Assembly: GCF_000017165.1 (NCBI RefSeq)
Contig: NC_009634.1
Span: forward strand, 1,410,552-1,474,551
Direction: 5' to 3'
Origin: Methanococcus vannielii SB
Lineage (GTDB): Archaea; AGJL01; Methanococci; Methanococcales; Methanococcaceae
Length of the DNA: 64,000 nucleotides
Shown here one piece after another: positions 10,013 to 45,007 of the stretch (within the stretch, counting starts at the first letter, position 1; each line of letters opens with the position of its first letter). The position numbers and the translations under genes were made by a program. The notes below the pieces were generated by a model, which saw only the letters and a list, made by a program, of their open reading frames with translations, was not told where the DNA came from and did no database searches.

Positions 10013-11374
10013 ATGGCTAAACTGGATTCAAAAATATATAAAATATTTTTAATTTTAATTTTGGCTGTTTCTTTTTTAAATACAGCTAACGCATACCGAT
10101 TTGAAGAGTATTCAGTTTACTATTCAATAGATAAAAACAACGTTTTTTCTGAAACAATAAACATAAAAATTTACAATAACGATTCTAAAGAAATAAAGGA
10201 TATACGATATAATATTCCTCAACAAACGTCAAATTTGATAATTAATTCTTCAAATGGCGTTGATTCATACTCTATTACCTCAGACGAATCAACGGGCATT
10301 ACTGAAATATTTGTACGGTTTGAAAAACCGATAACTCCTGGAAACACCGGAACGCTTTCATTAAGTTTTAGCGGGAGAATTAATGATATAAATGATAAAA
10401 GGCAGGTTTACATAATAGTTCCGGCACTTGATTCCAAGTTTAAGCTGACTGTCGAACTTCCAGAAGGGGCGACAATTGTTTCTCCAGTAAAGGATGTTTT
10501 AAGCATAAGTCCACGGGATTATACAATTTCTACTGATGGTAAAAGTATATTTATATTATGGGAAAAACAAATGTTTAGTTCTGAAAGGTATTTTGAAGCA
10601 ACAATAAATTATATGCTTACTGCAGTACCTCCTGAGCCCGAAAAAGTAGATAATGAAAATTTGTATCGTGCAATAATTTTAGTTTTAGCAGTACTCTTAA
10701 CTTCACTGATATTTTTCGTATATAGGAATTATAACAAGTTAAAAATGATACATGAGCTACAAAATGAAATAAATGGTTTAAATAGGGGACTTGAAATCTC
10801 TGGACTTAATCTTCAAAATAAAGATAGAGAAATTAGGAGACTCGAAGAATTAAATAATCACCTTACAAAAGAACTTGAACACTTCAAAAATACATTTGAA
10901 GATCAAGATTCTAAAATAAACTCATTAAAAGAGCAATTATCATTATTTGAGAGACAAAAAGAAACTTATGAAAATCTAAAGTCCGAATATTCCAAACTAC
11001 AAAACGAAGTTAGTGAATTAACTAACTATAAAAAACTTTCAAATGAATTAAAGAAAAAAATTGATGAATTAATGGAAATTTTAGGTGAAAAAGAAGAATA
11101 TATTTCAGAACTGGTTGATAGAATTGGAAACTATGAATCTCAAAAAAATGAAACATTGATGAACATATTAATTGACGAAGAAAGAGAATTAATTGAATTA
11201 ATCAAAGAACATGGTTCAATATCTCAAAAAGAAATAGTGGATATAACAGGCCTTACAAAGCCAAAGGTTTCAAGAATGATTTCTGACCTTGAACAAAGAG
11301 GGATTGTTAAAAAGGTTAAAATTGGAAGAATTAATAAAATAGCTCTTTCAAAGGAACTTGGAAACGATAATTAG
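10013..11374 (+). CDS. Membrane-anchored winged-helix protein with extracellular domain
   Basis: A 453-residue protein of unusual design. A hydrophobic signal sequence (about 9-27) leads to an extracytoplasmic beta-rich domain (28-215), then a transmembrane helix (218-237), a long cytoplasmic coiled coil (about 245-390) and a C-terminal winged helix-turn-helix (392-453, with ISQKEIVDITGLTKPKVSRMI). It looks like a one-component signal transducer that senses outside the membrane and binds DNA inside. Ligand and targets are unknown. I chose the ATG at 10013 because TTTGGAGATACC precedes it; the longer frame from 9977 would overlap the previous gene. It has no helicase or kinase domain. Confidence 0.75.
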   Translation: MAKLDSKIYKIFLILILAVSFLNTANAYRFEEYSVYYSIDKNNVFSETINIKIYNNDSKEIKDIRYNIPQQTSNLIINSSNGVDSYSITSDESTGITEIFVRFEKPITPGNTGTLSLSFSGRINDINDKRQVYIIVPALDSKFKLTVELPEGATIVSPVKDVLSISPRDYTISTDGKSIFILWEKQMFSSERYFEATINYMLTAVPPEPEKVDNENLYRAIILVLAVLLTSLIFFVYRNYNKLKMIHELQNEINGLNRGLEISGLNLQNKDREIRRLEELNNHLTKELEHFKNTFEDQDSKINSLKEQLSLFERQKETYENLKSEYSKLQNEVSELTNYKKLSNELKKKIDELMEILGEKEEYISELVDRIGNYESQKNETLMNILIDEERELIELIKEHGSISQKEIVDITGLTKPKVSRMISDLEQRGIVKKVKIGRINKIALSKELGNDN

Positions 11375-41263: not shown

Positions 41264-41272
41264 ATTTATATA
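41264..41272 (+). promoter_or_regulatory. Probable TATA box of the amidoligase operon
   Basis: TTTATATAC stands about 80 bp before the first gene of the three-gene operon. Transcription would begin near 41292-41297, at the edge of the hairpin described at 41291-41324. Confidence 0.4.
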
Positions 41273-41290
41273 CTGGAATAGTAGAGGAAT

Positions 41291-41324
41291 TCATGATACT
41301 TCGATTATCATGGGGGGTATCGAA
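41291..41324 (+). promoter_or_regulatory. Overlapping inverted repeats at the predicted 5' end of the amidoligase operon mRNA
   Basis: Three competing stems can be drawn here. ATGATA (41293-41298) pairs with TATCAT (41306-41311), extended by one C-G; TTCGAT (41300-41305) pairs with ATCGAA (41319-41324); GATAC (41295-41299) pairs with GTATC (41317-41321). They cannot all form together. Either an RNA switch/5'-end hairpin or an operator would fit. Pairing is seen; function is inferred. Confidence 0.4.
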
Positions 41325-41344
41325 CCTTTAAAACTTATTAAAAG

Positions 41345-41989
41345 GTGACTTTTATTCCTAAAAAAGGGTTTTTTTTAAATAAAGGTTCATATACTGTTGT
41401 AAAAGACGGAATAGACTGTGTAATAAGCAAAGATTATTTTTACAAAACAGAAAGCTACTATGAAATAATTTTAAAAGAAATTAATGGGGAAGACAAAGTA
41501 TTTCCAAATAGTAAGGATGTTTTAGATGCTTATGTAGTTCCAATTGCATTGAAACGTGCGGAAATTTCAGGAATTCCAACATGTAATTTTGAGATATCCT
41601 ATGGATACGTCCCATTTCCATCTATAGTTTATTCATTAAATTATTTTTCAGACCCTTCAATTTATTACGTTGTTAAAAACTGCGATGAATCAAAAAAAGC
41701 CTCAAAACACGTGACAAACTGTGGTAAGTACCCACTTTGCTACCAGAATATTTCGGAAGATTCAAGCATTGTTGATTTTTCAGTAATATTTGGGCAAACT
41801 GACGTGGAAAATGAACAGTTAAAATATATTGCAGGTAAAATATACGAAATTTTCAAAATCCCCCTATTAAAGGTATTGTGTGTTAATAAGGATGGCAAAA
41901 TGCTTCTTTCATCAATATCTCCACTTAATACTTCAAAACTCACTAAAAAAGAAAAGGAACTTATTGAAAAGACCTTGTTGGTGGATTAA
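41345..41989 (+). CDS. RimK-associated N-terminal-type (RLAN-like) protein
   Basis: A protein of about 211-214 residues, first gene of a three-gene operon. It resembles the RLAN domain found fused or adjacent to RimK-type ATP-grasp ligases (segments DAYVVPIALKRAEISGIPTC and PSIVYSLNYFSDPSIYYVV). There are four Cys in the middle part, two of them in NCGKYPLCYQN. Start: the frame opens with GTG at 41345, but GGTGA at 41344-41348 looks like the ribosome binding site itself, placing an ATT at 41354 exactly where the start should be. The next gene begins at the base after the stop. Confidence 0.7.
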   Translation: MTFIPKKGFFLNKGSYTVVKDGIDCVISKDYFYKTESYYEIILKEINGEDKVFPNSKDVLDAYVVPIALKRAEISGIPTCNFEISYGYVPFPSIVYSLNYFSDPSIYYVVKNCDESKKASKHVTNCGKYPLCYQNISEDSSIVDFSVIFGQTDVENEQLKYIAGKIYEIFKIPLLKVLCVNKDGKMLLSSISPLNTSKLTKKEKELIEKTLLVD

Positions 41990-42940
41990 ATGGGAAAATT
42001 AGGAGTTTTTGTAGATAGGCAAACTTTAAGTAGTTCAAATCAACTCCGCTCACTTATTCGTTTTAGAGATATTGCTGAATCGATGGGACATGAGTTTTAT
42101 TTTTTATTTCCAAATGAAATTAATAAAATAAAGACTTTAGATGGTCTTTTTATACGCTGTAAAACAGATCCCATGAATATAAGTTATGTAGCATCGAGAA
42201 TGGCAGAATTACATGGGGTAAAAGTAATAGATGATTCAAAGTCGATTAGAATATGTGCGGATAAAATAAATATGTATTCCCACATGATTAAAAATGGAAT
42301 TAATATTCCAAAAACTATATTTATGAAAAAATCAGAAGTAAATGAAGGAAATGCGGAAAAAATAATAAGTGAATTAGGGCTCCCACTTGTACTTAAGGAA
42401 CCTTCAACATCATTTTCAGTTCGTGTTGAAAAAATTACGTCTCTTGAAGAATTTATGAAAGTTGCAAACCGATTTACACGTCTTTCTGACATTTTTGTCG
42501 TCCAAGAATTTATAGGAAGTAAATTTGACTGGAGAATTGGCGTTATAAATGGGGAAATAATATACACATGTAAATACCATCTTCCAAAAGAAAGTTTTAA
42601 GATACAAGACTGTATTGACGGGCATATGGTTTTTTGCACTGTTGAAAGTATTCCATTAGATGAAGTCCCAAAAAAAGTCCTTGAACTTGGTTTAAAGGCA
42701 GCAAATGCTGTTGGGAACGGACTTTATGGGATAGACTTAAAAGAAAGAAATGGTGAAGTTTACGTAATAGAGGTAAATGATAATCCATCTATGGAAACAA
42801 CGGAAGATGAATTTTACCCTGAAGCGTATTTAAAAATAATTTCGTACATAATGAATACAGATAAGTCTAATTTCCACAAAAACGAATTAAATATTTCAGA
42901 AGCTTTGGAAACAAATGGTGTGGTTAATGATAGGAACTGA
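41990..42940 (+). CDS. RimK-like ATP-grasp ligase
   Basis: A 316-residue ATP-grasp enzyme that should join a carboxylate to an amine through an acyl phosphate. LPLVLKEPSTSFSVRV is the ATP-binding lysine/glycine loop region, FVVQEFIGSKFDWRIGVI contains the adenine-contacting strand, and YVIEVNDNPSMETTEDE the Mg-binding Glu/Asn pair. The N-terminal 100 residues form the pre-ATP-grasp domain. The ATG directly follows the upstream stop, and the next gene overlaps this one by 14 bp: translational coupling is likely. Substrates are unknown; RimK, LysX and CofF relatives add glutamate or similar amino acids. Confidence 0.82.
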   Translation: MGKLGVFVDRQTLSSSNQLRSLIRFRDIAESMGHEFYFLFPNEINKIKTLDGLFIRCKTDPMNISYVASRMAELHGVKVIDDSKSIRICADKINMYSHMIKNGINIPKTIFMKKSEVNEGNAEKIISELGLPLVLKEPSTSFSVRVEKITSLEEFMKVANRFTRLSDIFVVQEFIGSKFDWRIGVINGEIIYTCKYHLPKESFKIQDCIDGHMVFCTVESIPLDEVPKKVLELGLKAANAVGNGLYGIDLKERNGEVYVIEVNDNPSMETTEDEFYPEAYLKIISYIMNTDKSNFHKNELNISEALETNGVVNDRN

Positions 42941-44030
42941 GCATGAATATTCTATCAATGACTTTAATTTTAAAGCAATGCCGATTTCAGATGTAATAAT
43001 TAAAGAAATTACTGGAAAAATACAAAATGAATTCTTTTTAGATACAATTGGAATTTCAAAAGAACTTCAAAAACACGTAATTGAATTTAAGCCGAAAATG
43101 CCTTCAGGAAGCATTAAAGACTTGGAAAAAATGCTTTATGACGGCATGAAAGACTTTCACTCCCGTACAAATAATTGTTATAATTTAATGGGTCTTGGAA
43201 TGCACCCTTTACTTGATTTAAACGGAACTGCATTCTGGGATCATGATGAAAGGGAAGTTTTCGATACATATGACCGTGTATTCAATTTAAAACAGCATGG
43301 ATGGTTAAATATACAGTCAATACAAGTTAATGTATCATATTCAAGTGAAGACGATATGGTTTTAAAACACAATAAAATTAGGACCATGATTCCATATCTT
43401 GTTGCTTTAACCGCATCTTCCCCCATGGTTGAAGGAAAACTTACTAAATACGCAGATAACAGGCTTATATACTATAAAGAAAACCAAAAAGAAATTCCTG
43501 AAATTACTGGAAAAATAATTCCTGAACCTCTTTTAAAATCTTCAGATTATGAAGACCTACTTGAAAAAATGTATATGGAACTTAAGGAAAAAGAAGCTCA
43601 AGTTTTATGTCAGGAATGGGTAAATTCAAGAGGTTTAATAGTAAGACGAGAAAGAAAATGTGTTGAAATAAAAGCAATGGATGAACAAGAGTCTATTCAT
43701 GCAGATATGGCCATTTCTGCATTGATAAATTGTTTAATTCGTGTGGATGACTTAAATCTCCCTGATGATGAAGAAGGAATATTGGAAGTATTTGAAACAG
43801 CAAAAAAATCTGGAACTAAAAATTTAAAGCCCGAACTTGAAGCAATATATAAAAAAGCGCAATTAATTGCAACCAACGAAGAAAGACATTATTTAAAGCA
43901 TATTTTTAATCGGATTGAATATGGTTGCCTTTCTGAAATTATTACTGAAAAATATAATGAAGAAAAAGATATTTTAAAAATTATGAATGAAGCAAAATTG
44001 TGTTTAAAAGAAAACAAATTAATGTTTTAA
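42927..44030 (+). CDS. GCS2-family carboxylate-amine ligase (YbdK/EgtA-like)
   Basis: A 367-residue protein of the glutamate-cysteine ligase 2 superfamily. IGTEHEYSI at the N-terminus is the metal/ATP-binding motif of these amidoligases; VIEFKPKMP, MGLGMHPLLD, HGWLNIQSIQVNVSY and AANSSPMVEG-like TASSPMVEGK follow in the expected order. The reaction is probably ATP-dependent formation of a gamma- or alpha-amide bond. ATG 42927 is chosen because GGTG stands 7-10 bases upstream; the frame is open to 42915. It is the last gene of the RLAN/ATP-grasp operon. Methanogens are not known to make glutathione. Confidence 0.8.
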   Translation: MIGTEHEYSINDFNFKAMPISDVIIKEITGKIQNEFFLDTIGISKELQKHVIEFKPKMPSGSIKDLEKMLYDGMKDFHSRTNNCYNLMGLGMHPLLDLNGTAFWDHDEREVFDTYDRVFNLKQHGWLNIQSIQVNVSYSSEDDMVLKHNKIRTMIPYLVALTASSPMVEGKLTKYADNRLIYYKENQKEIPEITGKIIPEPLLKSSDYEDLLEKMYMELKEKEAQVLCQEWVNSRGLIVRRERKCVEIKAMDEQESIHADMAISALINCLIRVDDLNLPDDEEGILEVFETAKKSGTKNLKPELEAIYKKAQLIATNEERHYLKHIFNRIEYGCLSEIITEKYNEEKDILKIMNEAKLCLKENKLMF

Positions 44031-44080: not shown

Positions 44081-44854
44081 TTAATTTTTTAATTTTTTAC
44101 TTGGATTTTCAAACGAACAAGGAATATTTGATAAGCATTTTCCGCAAACATCGGAAATTCCAATTTTTTCATAAATTTTTGCATTCAAAAGGCATGCTTT
44201 ATAGCACTCTTTTCTATTAAATTTATTTATTTTTAAGGCTCCTTTTTCACATTTTTCAATGCAAACACCACATGAATAATTGTACTTATATAAACAATAT
44301 TCATAACATGGTTTTTCAGTTGGAATTAATTTAATATCGGTAACAATGCTTCCAATTCTCCCACTACATCCCTTTTCCGTAATTAACATGTTATTTATTC
44401 CGAAAGTTCCCAAACCTGAGATATATGCAACATGCCTATGCGACCAATTACTTATAAGTTTTTCAGTATCAAAATTATGCGTTGGTGGAATTTTAGCACA
44501 AACATGCCCAAACTTACCTAATTCCACAGATAAATAACTATTTAAATTCTTAATCATATTATTAGTTTCAACATATGCCTTAGCCCATTCTTTAGATGCA
44601 ATTCCTGAAAAATCGTTACTTTTGACGATATTTTCAGCAAAAGGTAAAAAATAGCAAACAACACTTTTTGAAGTTGGTAAAATTTCTTGAGGAGTTAAAT
44701 GTTCTTTTGAGATAATTTCCTTTAATTTTATAAATTCTGGATTTTCGGCATCTGAATATCCAACAATTGGCTTTTTCCATGCAGTTTTGGTATTATTTTC
44801 TAAAGGATAATTTTTTACAAAATTAACGATTAAATCTCTTATAATCTGTTCCAT
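44081..44854 (-). CDS. QueG-like iron-sulfur protein
   Basis: A 257-residue protein related to epoxyqueuosine reductase. SVVCYFLPF, RHVAYISGLGTFGINNML and GSIVTDI are core motifs of the cobalamin-binding reductase part. The C-terminal half has cysteine sets CLYKYNYSCGVCIEKCEKG and later CGKCLSNIPC, suitable for two [4Fe-4S] clusters. HEAT repeats of bacterial QueG are absent. Archaea generally lack queuosine, so a different reduction is likely. I chose ATG 44854 (TGGGGTGGAAAA upstream). It is convergent with the amidoligase operon. Confidence 0.78.
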   Translation of the reverse strand: MEQIIRDLIVNFVKNYPLENNTKTAWKKPIVGYSDAENPEFIKLKEIISKEHLTPQEILPTSKSVVCYFLPFAENIVKSNDFSGIASKEWAKAYVETNNMIKNLNSYLSVELGKFGHVCAKIPPTHNFDTEKLISNWSHRHVAYISGLGTFGINNMLITEKGCSGRIGSIVTDIKLIPTEKPCYEYCLYKYNYSCGVCIEKCEKGALKINKFNRKECYKACLLNAKIYEKIGISDVCGKCLSNIPCSFENPSKKLKN

Positions 44855-45007
44855 TTTTCCACCCCACATTTAATTTAATTTTATTCTTAATTTACTTTTG
44901 CTTTGATTTAATTATCCTGACTAACATGGCTACTTTTAATACTTTATTCTTTAGTTTTTTATATGTCCTTTTCTAAATATCTTTTAAAATATCTTGGAGA
45001 TTTTAAA

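Follow-up and report, generated by a model that had tools for sequence, protein, structure and literature searches.

Three co-directional genes on the plus strand of the analyzed window, for an RLAN protein, a RimK-type ATP-grasp ligase, and a GCS2 carboxylate-amine ligase, were identified from the list of open reading frames and from Pfam matches (Table 1). The window is a 64,000-nucleotide stretch (positions 1410552-1474551) of the Methanococcus vannielii SB genome, which consists of a single contig of 1.72 Mb. The tight packing proposed in the initial annotation is confirmed, with all three genes at the positions given there: the RimK ATG (41990) directly follows the RLAN stop codon TAA (41987-41989), and the GCS2 ATG at 42927 opens a 14-bp overlap with the RimK gene, whose stop codon ends at 42940. 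Both junctions are identical in the Methanococcus relatives that carry the operon. These three further carriers are close relatives and probably belong to the M. maripaludis group. On the minus strand, positions 44081-44869 encode a Cys-rich protein with weak similarity to epoxyqueuosine reductase QueG (23 bits against a cut-off of 200) and without a Pfam match; this gene adjoins the operon in the relatives too.

Table 1. Features of the operon and its upstream region (positions within the window)
Feature	Position	Strand	Evidence and remarks
TATA-like promoter element	41264-41273	+	ATTTATATAC, conserved in three relatives; located about 25 bp ahead of the leader
Conserved 5' leader	41285-41335	+	86% identity with three Methanococcus relatives
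Mini-ORF inside the leader	41293-41331	+	MILRLSWGVSNL*, 12 codons
Ribosome-binding site of RLAN	41344-41348	+	GGTGA, kept in 4/4 carrier genomes
RLAN gene	41354-41989	+	Probable ATT start (ORF caller: GTG 41345); Pfam RLAN
RimK-type ATP-grasp ligase, RLAN-linked subfamily	41990-42940	+	Pfam RimK, catalytic residues, tree
GCS2 carboxylate-amine ligase (gamma-glutamyl-ligase-like), 367 aa	42927-44030	+	Pfam GCS2, AF2 model, folds

A Conserved Leader and an Unusual Start Codon

The identity of the leader across the three relatives compares with about 48% for most intergenic DNA nearby. Within it, an 18-nucleotide block, TCATGATACTTCGATTAT, occurs exactly and at a single site in each of the four carriers and is confined to Methanococcus carriers. 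The leader has no match in Rfam. It contains a mini-ORF of 12-13 codons across the carriers (MILRLYCGGVSGL in the relatives), located near the predicted transcription start. The leader could be a regulatory element.

In each of the four Methanococcus carriers, the RLAN reading frame probably begins with ATT (AUU). The GTG at 41345, chosen by the ORF caller, overlaps the GGTGA motif. In the three relatives this codon is out of frame, and no in-frame ATG, GTG, or TTG occurs between the upstream stop codon and a conserved IPKK segment. This segment aligns with residues internal to the Methanothrix RLAN protein (MNKRHTIPKK), and all four genomes share only one start-like codon, the ATT located 4-5 nucleotides past GGTGA. 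The automatically assigned starts (the GTG here; a later TTG or ATG at loci L008, L009, and L010) look wrong. A programmed frameshift at AAAAAAG, which precedes the RLAN frame in the relatives, was considered and dropped because of a stop codon in the other frame of the window. Synonymous conservation at the 5' end of the gene is not exceptional, with 23/33 codons identical compared with 56-62% elsewhere in the operon.

Two Ligases Outside the Curated Families

The second gene product matches the Pfam RimK family (PF08443; 49.7 bits against a cut-off of 21), and the ATP-grasp motifs ascribed to it at the outset are accompanied by the expected catalytic residues: K136, R182, D249, E261, and N263 are invariant in 16 archaeal homologues, and the homologue alignment shows D249, K251, E261, N263, and N265 to be invariant. 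The protein shares its fold and catalytic residues with the RimK, LysX/ArgX, CofF, and MptN ligases; however, it falls below every curated cut-off and belongs to a separate clade of RLAN-linked RimK proteins. Its scores are 88.6 bits for the NCBIfam rimK_fam model (TIGR00768; cut-off 143.4), 76.8 for LysX (TIGR02144; 275.6), 58.6 for MptN (NF040720; 350), 49.4 for CofF (TIGR04443; 300), and 20 for MfnD (400), and the NCBIfam comparison shows it to be only distantly similar to GshB. Dedicated genes for CofF (507 bits) and MptN (383 bits) are located elsewhere in the M. vannielii genome, which refutes the identity of the operon ligase with either enzyme; such an identity had been named in the initial annotation as evidence against a new pathway. 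At locus L010 (genome G017, about positions 10041-10226), the N-terminal part of the RimK gene contains a frameshift, whether from gene decay or from an error in sequencing; the RLAN and GCS2 genes there are intact.

The GTEHEY motif noted earlier in the third gene product is present at its N terminus. The protein matches Pfam GCS2 (PF04107) with 123.2 bits against a cut-off of 21, and its AF2 model (pLDDT 92) predicts the same fold as that of YbdK (1r8g) and plant glutamate-cysteine ligase (GCL; 2gwc), the nearest structures, with a TM score of about 0.73. In contrast to this overall similarity, identity to the two enzymes is only 13-16%, and the subfamily has its own invariant signature, FN-x3-HGW-x-N-x-Q. 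The score for YbdK (TIGR02050) is 50.5 bits against a cut-off of 176.4, and all GshA models score lower still. Neither the RimK nor the GCS2 protein passes the cut-off of any NCBIfam equivalog model. With its families, the retained RimK residues, and the predicted GCS2 fold, a conserved amidoligase gene set, as originally proposed, is real.

RLAN Resembles a Degenerate ATP-Grasp Domain

The RLAN protein matches Pfam PF14401 with 40.5 bits against a cut-off of 25, the match being confined to the C-terminal half of the model. When its AF2 model (pLDDT 84) was used as a Foldseek query, the top matches were all ATP-grasp proteins, led by LysX/ArgX (E = 1.7e-8) and followed by RimK, D-Ala ligases, and others. 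The superpositions with LysX/ArgX, RimK, and Ddl extend over the whole length of RLAN with query-normalized TM scores of 0.56-0.61, values obtained with a predicted model as the query and with RMSDs that are mostly 4-5 angstrom or more. A second, viral structure library assigns the model to the same class. A direct comparison of the RLAN and RimK profiles aligned the corresponding regions at E = 0.00035 and a probability of 37%, which is weak on its own; ten column-shuffled controls gave 0.1-0.7%. When solved structures were searched with an RLAN sequence profile, the matches were at chance level only.

Based on these comparisons, RLAN looks like an ATP-grasp fold. In an alignment made by hand from matching strands, none of 17 archaeal RLAN proteins retains the RimK residues D249, E261, N263, and K136 at the equivalent positions. 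A predicted ATP-grasp fold without the metal- and ATP-binding residues that are invariant in RimK suggests, as the simplest reading, that RLAN is a catalytically dead ATP-grasp partner of the active RimK subunit. The pairing of a dead with a live subunit is consistent with the fusion of RLAN to RimK in bacteria. The protein had initially been likened to the RLAN domain that accompanies RimK ligases; the Pfam match supports the name, but the predicted fold suggests more than an accompanying domain, namely, a degenerate ATP-grasp domain in its own right.

Distribution and Inheritance of the Gene Set

Conservation of the three-gene order throughout the Methanococcales, put forward with the initial annotation as a check, was found only in part. 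Both GCS2 and RLAN are encoded in the same 4/36 genomes of the order, all of them Methanococcus and with one chromosomal context (a phylum-level search for RLAN covered the same 36 genomes); yet order and adjacency are retained in Methanothrix and in many bacterial phyla, where RLAN is fused to RimK. When 84,980 genomes were scanned with a GCS2 profile, at least 285 places that encode relatives were located, and the gene set is also present in other archaea and in bacteria from more than ten phyla.

Synteny was counted among the best 80 of these 285 places. In bacteria, a fused RLAN-RimK gene lies beside GCS2 in 42 of the 43 loci with enough flanking sequence, a protein similar to N-formylglutamate amidohydrolase (FGase) is encoded in 34/43, and a C39-like peptidase in 32/43. 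Among archaeal loci from the same best 80, likewise with enough flanking sequence, RLAN and RimK are adjacent in 14/21, and a CxxCxxCC protein is encoded in 20/21. Archaeal RLAN and RimK are separate genes, with an overlap of about 4 bp at most of 15 loci, and neighboring genes at the loci generally abut or share a few bases. These counts place the gene set far from a chance arrangement. The M. vannielii operon itself contains RLAN, RimK, and GCS2 genes of the same subfamilies, adjacent and in the same order.

The closest relatives are the RLAN-RimK-CxxCxxCC-GCS2 operons of Methanothrix (L026-L028 and L054), which share the gene order and, with the Methanococcus proteins, 48% identity in GCS2, 54% in RimK, and 46-47% in RLAN. 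They differ in a gene for an eight-cysteine CxxCxxCC protein between RimK and GCS2, a position at which Methanococcus has none. Eight cysteines and one histidine are invariant in the CxxCxxCC protein (L026, L028, L030, L037, L042, and L050), and this archaeal partner is likely a metal-cluster protein. Two CxxCxxCC proteins are encoded elsewhere in the M. vannielii genome. With a profile specific to the operon, however, no M. vannielii protein reached E = 0.001, and the matches are equally weak in carriers and non-carriers; therefore, we do not claim a CxxCxxCC partner for this species.

The bacterial clusters of C39-like peptidase, RLAN-RimK, GCS2, and FGase (for example, L051, L053, L059, and L061), of which the Legionella adelaidensis plasmid NZ_LR134436 carries a part, share with Methanococcus the RimK and GCS2 subfamilies, the gene order, and overlapping or abutting genes, with RLAN N-terminal to RimK. 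In Methanococcus, by contrast, RLAN is a separate, longer gene, and the operon has neither the peptidase nor FGase: there is no C39-like gene among the neighboring ORFs examined in the window and no FGase in the whole M. vannielii genome. In Azospirillum (L023, 6139-8846), the RLAN-RimK gene lies beside a GNAT-DUF3335 (C39-like) fusion, in which an acetyltransferase domain replaces GCS2, and inspection by eye suggests the same pairing in Tistrella (L025, 4107-6855).

The RimK tree and the GCS2 tree show the same broad outline, grouping Methanococcus with Methanothrix, then with Bathyarchaeia and Njordarchaeia, and then with bacteria; the root of the RimK tree, in which the CofF paralogue sits on a very long branch, is not trusted. 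For the most part, the gene set has been inherited as a unit. In six Bathyarchaeal genomes with GCS2 and CxxCxxCC genes but no adjoining RLAN and RimK, an adjacent RLAN-RimK pair is located elsewhere (6/6).

A Two-Ligase Model and Its Alternatives

GCS2 enzymes activate a carboxylate; the substrate group in glutamate-cysteine ligase is the gamma-carboxylate of glutamate. Ligases of the RimK type likewise activate a carboxylate, to which they add an amino acid. The combination of one GCS2 enzyme with one ATP-grasp enzyme is the logic of glutathione synthesis (PMC7278568), and the correspondence of both families to this logic favors synthesis of a peptide in two steps. By analogy, the operon would constitute a glutathione-like module in which two ligases, accompanied by a non-catalytic RLAN protein, make a small non-ribosomal peptide or a peptide-like molecule, a reading to which we assign a probability of about one half. 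GCS2 would join an amine to a side-chain carboxylate that it activates, probably that of the gamma position of glutamate. The RimK-type ligase would then activate a carboxylate of the GCS2 product or of a precursor and add a further amino acid or amine. The dead RLAN protein would be the partner of the active RimK subunit, whose substrate it would probably shape or hold, the two having been fused in bacteria, and the product would most likely be a small non-ribosomal peptide or a related metabolite. It is important to note that we infer the pairing, the order of the steps, the substrates, and the release of a free small molecule alike. Several observations run against the model: the GCS2 protein differs from true glutamate-cysteine ligases as well as from YbdK, the peptidase-like partners in bacteria would also fit reversible protein tagging, and some archaeal GCS2 genes come from genomes, albeit incomplete ones, in which RLAN and the close RimK are missing.

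Such tagging is the main alternative, although a less likely one. Amino acids would be attached by both ligases to a protein or peptide, and in bacteria this tag would be trimmed or taken off by the C39-like peptidase and the FGase-like hydrolase. RimK is an enzyme that adds amino acids to ribosomal protein S6. In Pseudomonas, its modification of RpsF is opposed by a protease (PMC12239564); the frequency of both hydrolases at the bacterial loci fits this scheme. The archaeal loci, however, contain neither hydrolase, and no target gene is linked to the locus. The GCS2, YbdK, and GCL enzymes of known activity, moreover, act on small molecules.

We would be surprised if the operon matured a ribosomal peptide in the manner of graspetides, with the mini-ORF of the leader (MILRLSWGVSNL here) as the precursor. 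Its conservation near the predicted transcription start, together with the maturation of graspetides by ATP-grasp ligases as described in PMC8939145, would fit such a role, but the mini-ORF is very short, offers no acidic or lysine residues for cross-linking, and has no ribosome-binding site. The 18-nucleotide block is also confined to Methanococcus carriers, and the leader could be simply regulatory. Synthesis of gamma-glutamylcysteine or glutathione itself appears similarly improbable. Although a GCS2 fold with an ATP-grasp partner follows the logic of GshA plus GshB, and GshA-like and GshB-like genes occur together in some other methanogens (PMC7278568), the operon proteins are far from the GshA, YbdK, and GshB families in score, and an early survey of five unidentified methanogens, as cited in that review, found neither compound. 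Membership in the RimK superfamily is common to the operon ligase and to CofF, MptN, MfnD, and LysX, so that a known methanogen ligase under a loose annotation might be considered; this explanation is hardly credible, given the scores below all four cut-offs, the dedicated CofF and MptN genes, and the absence of the gene from most Methanococcales, which nevertheless use the cofactors in question.

More generally, this is a widespread gene set, and its conservation spans both prokaryotic domains. The pathway is nevertheless not as undescribed as originally stated: bacterial RLAN-RimK associations were reportedly among the predictions made by Iyer et al. in 2009, a study that PMC12239564 and PMC10318531 cite. 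A literature search returned no experimental paper on the gene set and none on RimK in M. maripaludis, a genetically tractable species. New here are the split archaeal form with its CxxCxxCC partner and the distribution and co-inheritance of that form; the apparent nature of RLAN as a degenerate ATP-grasp domain is likewise new. If RLAN is indeed a dead ATP-grasp subunit, an uncharacterized Pfam domain gains a fold and a testable role. Returning to the two-ligase model, we tentatively propose, at less than even odds, that RLAN and RimK form an amide ligase from a dead and a live ATP-grasp subunit and that this ligase acts with a distinct GCS2 enzyme to make an undescribed peptide-like metabolite. 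Such a metabolite would be common to Bathyarchaeia, to certain methanogens, and to bacteria of more than ten phyla.

GCS2 may also act without the other two proteins, since a Bathyarchaeal GCS2 subclade and the GCS2 of Archaeoglobaceae come from genomes, albeit incomplete ones, that lack RLAN and a close RimK. Inspection by eye of this Bathyarchaeal subclade (L033, L039, and L043) shows GCS2 beside genes for a protein similar to pyruvoyl-dependent arginine decarboxylase and for a small HExxH protein. A deoxyhypusine-synthase-like gene lies nearby at L039 and L043, and AdoMet-decarboxylase-like and agmatinase-like genes at L033. These neighbors hint at a polyamine-linked substrate for GCS2.
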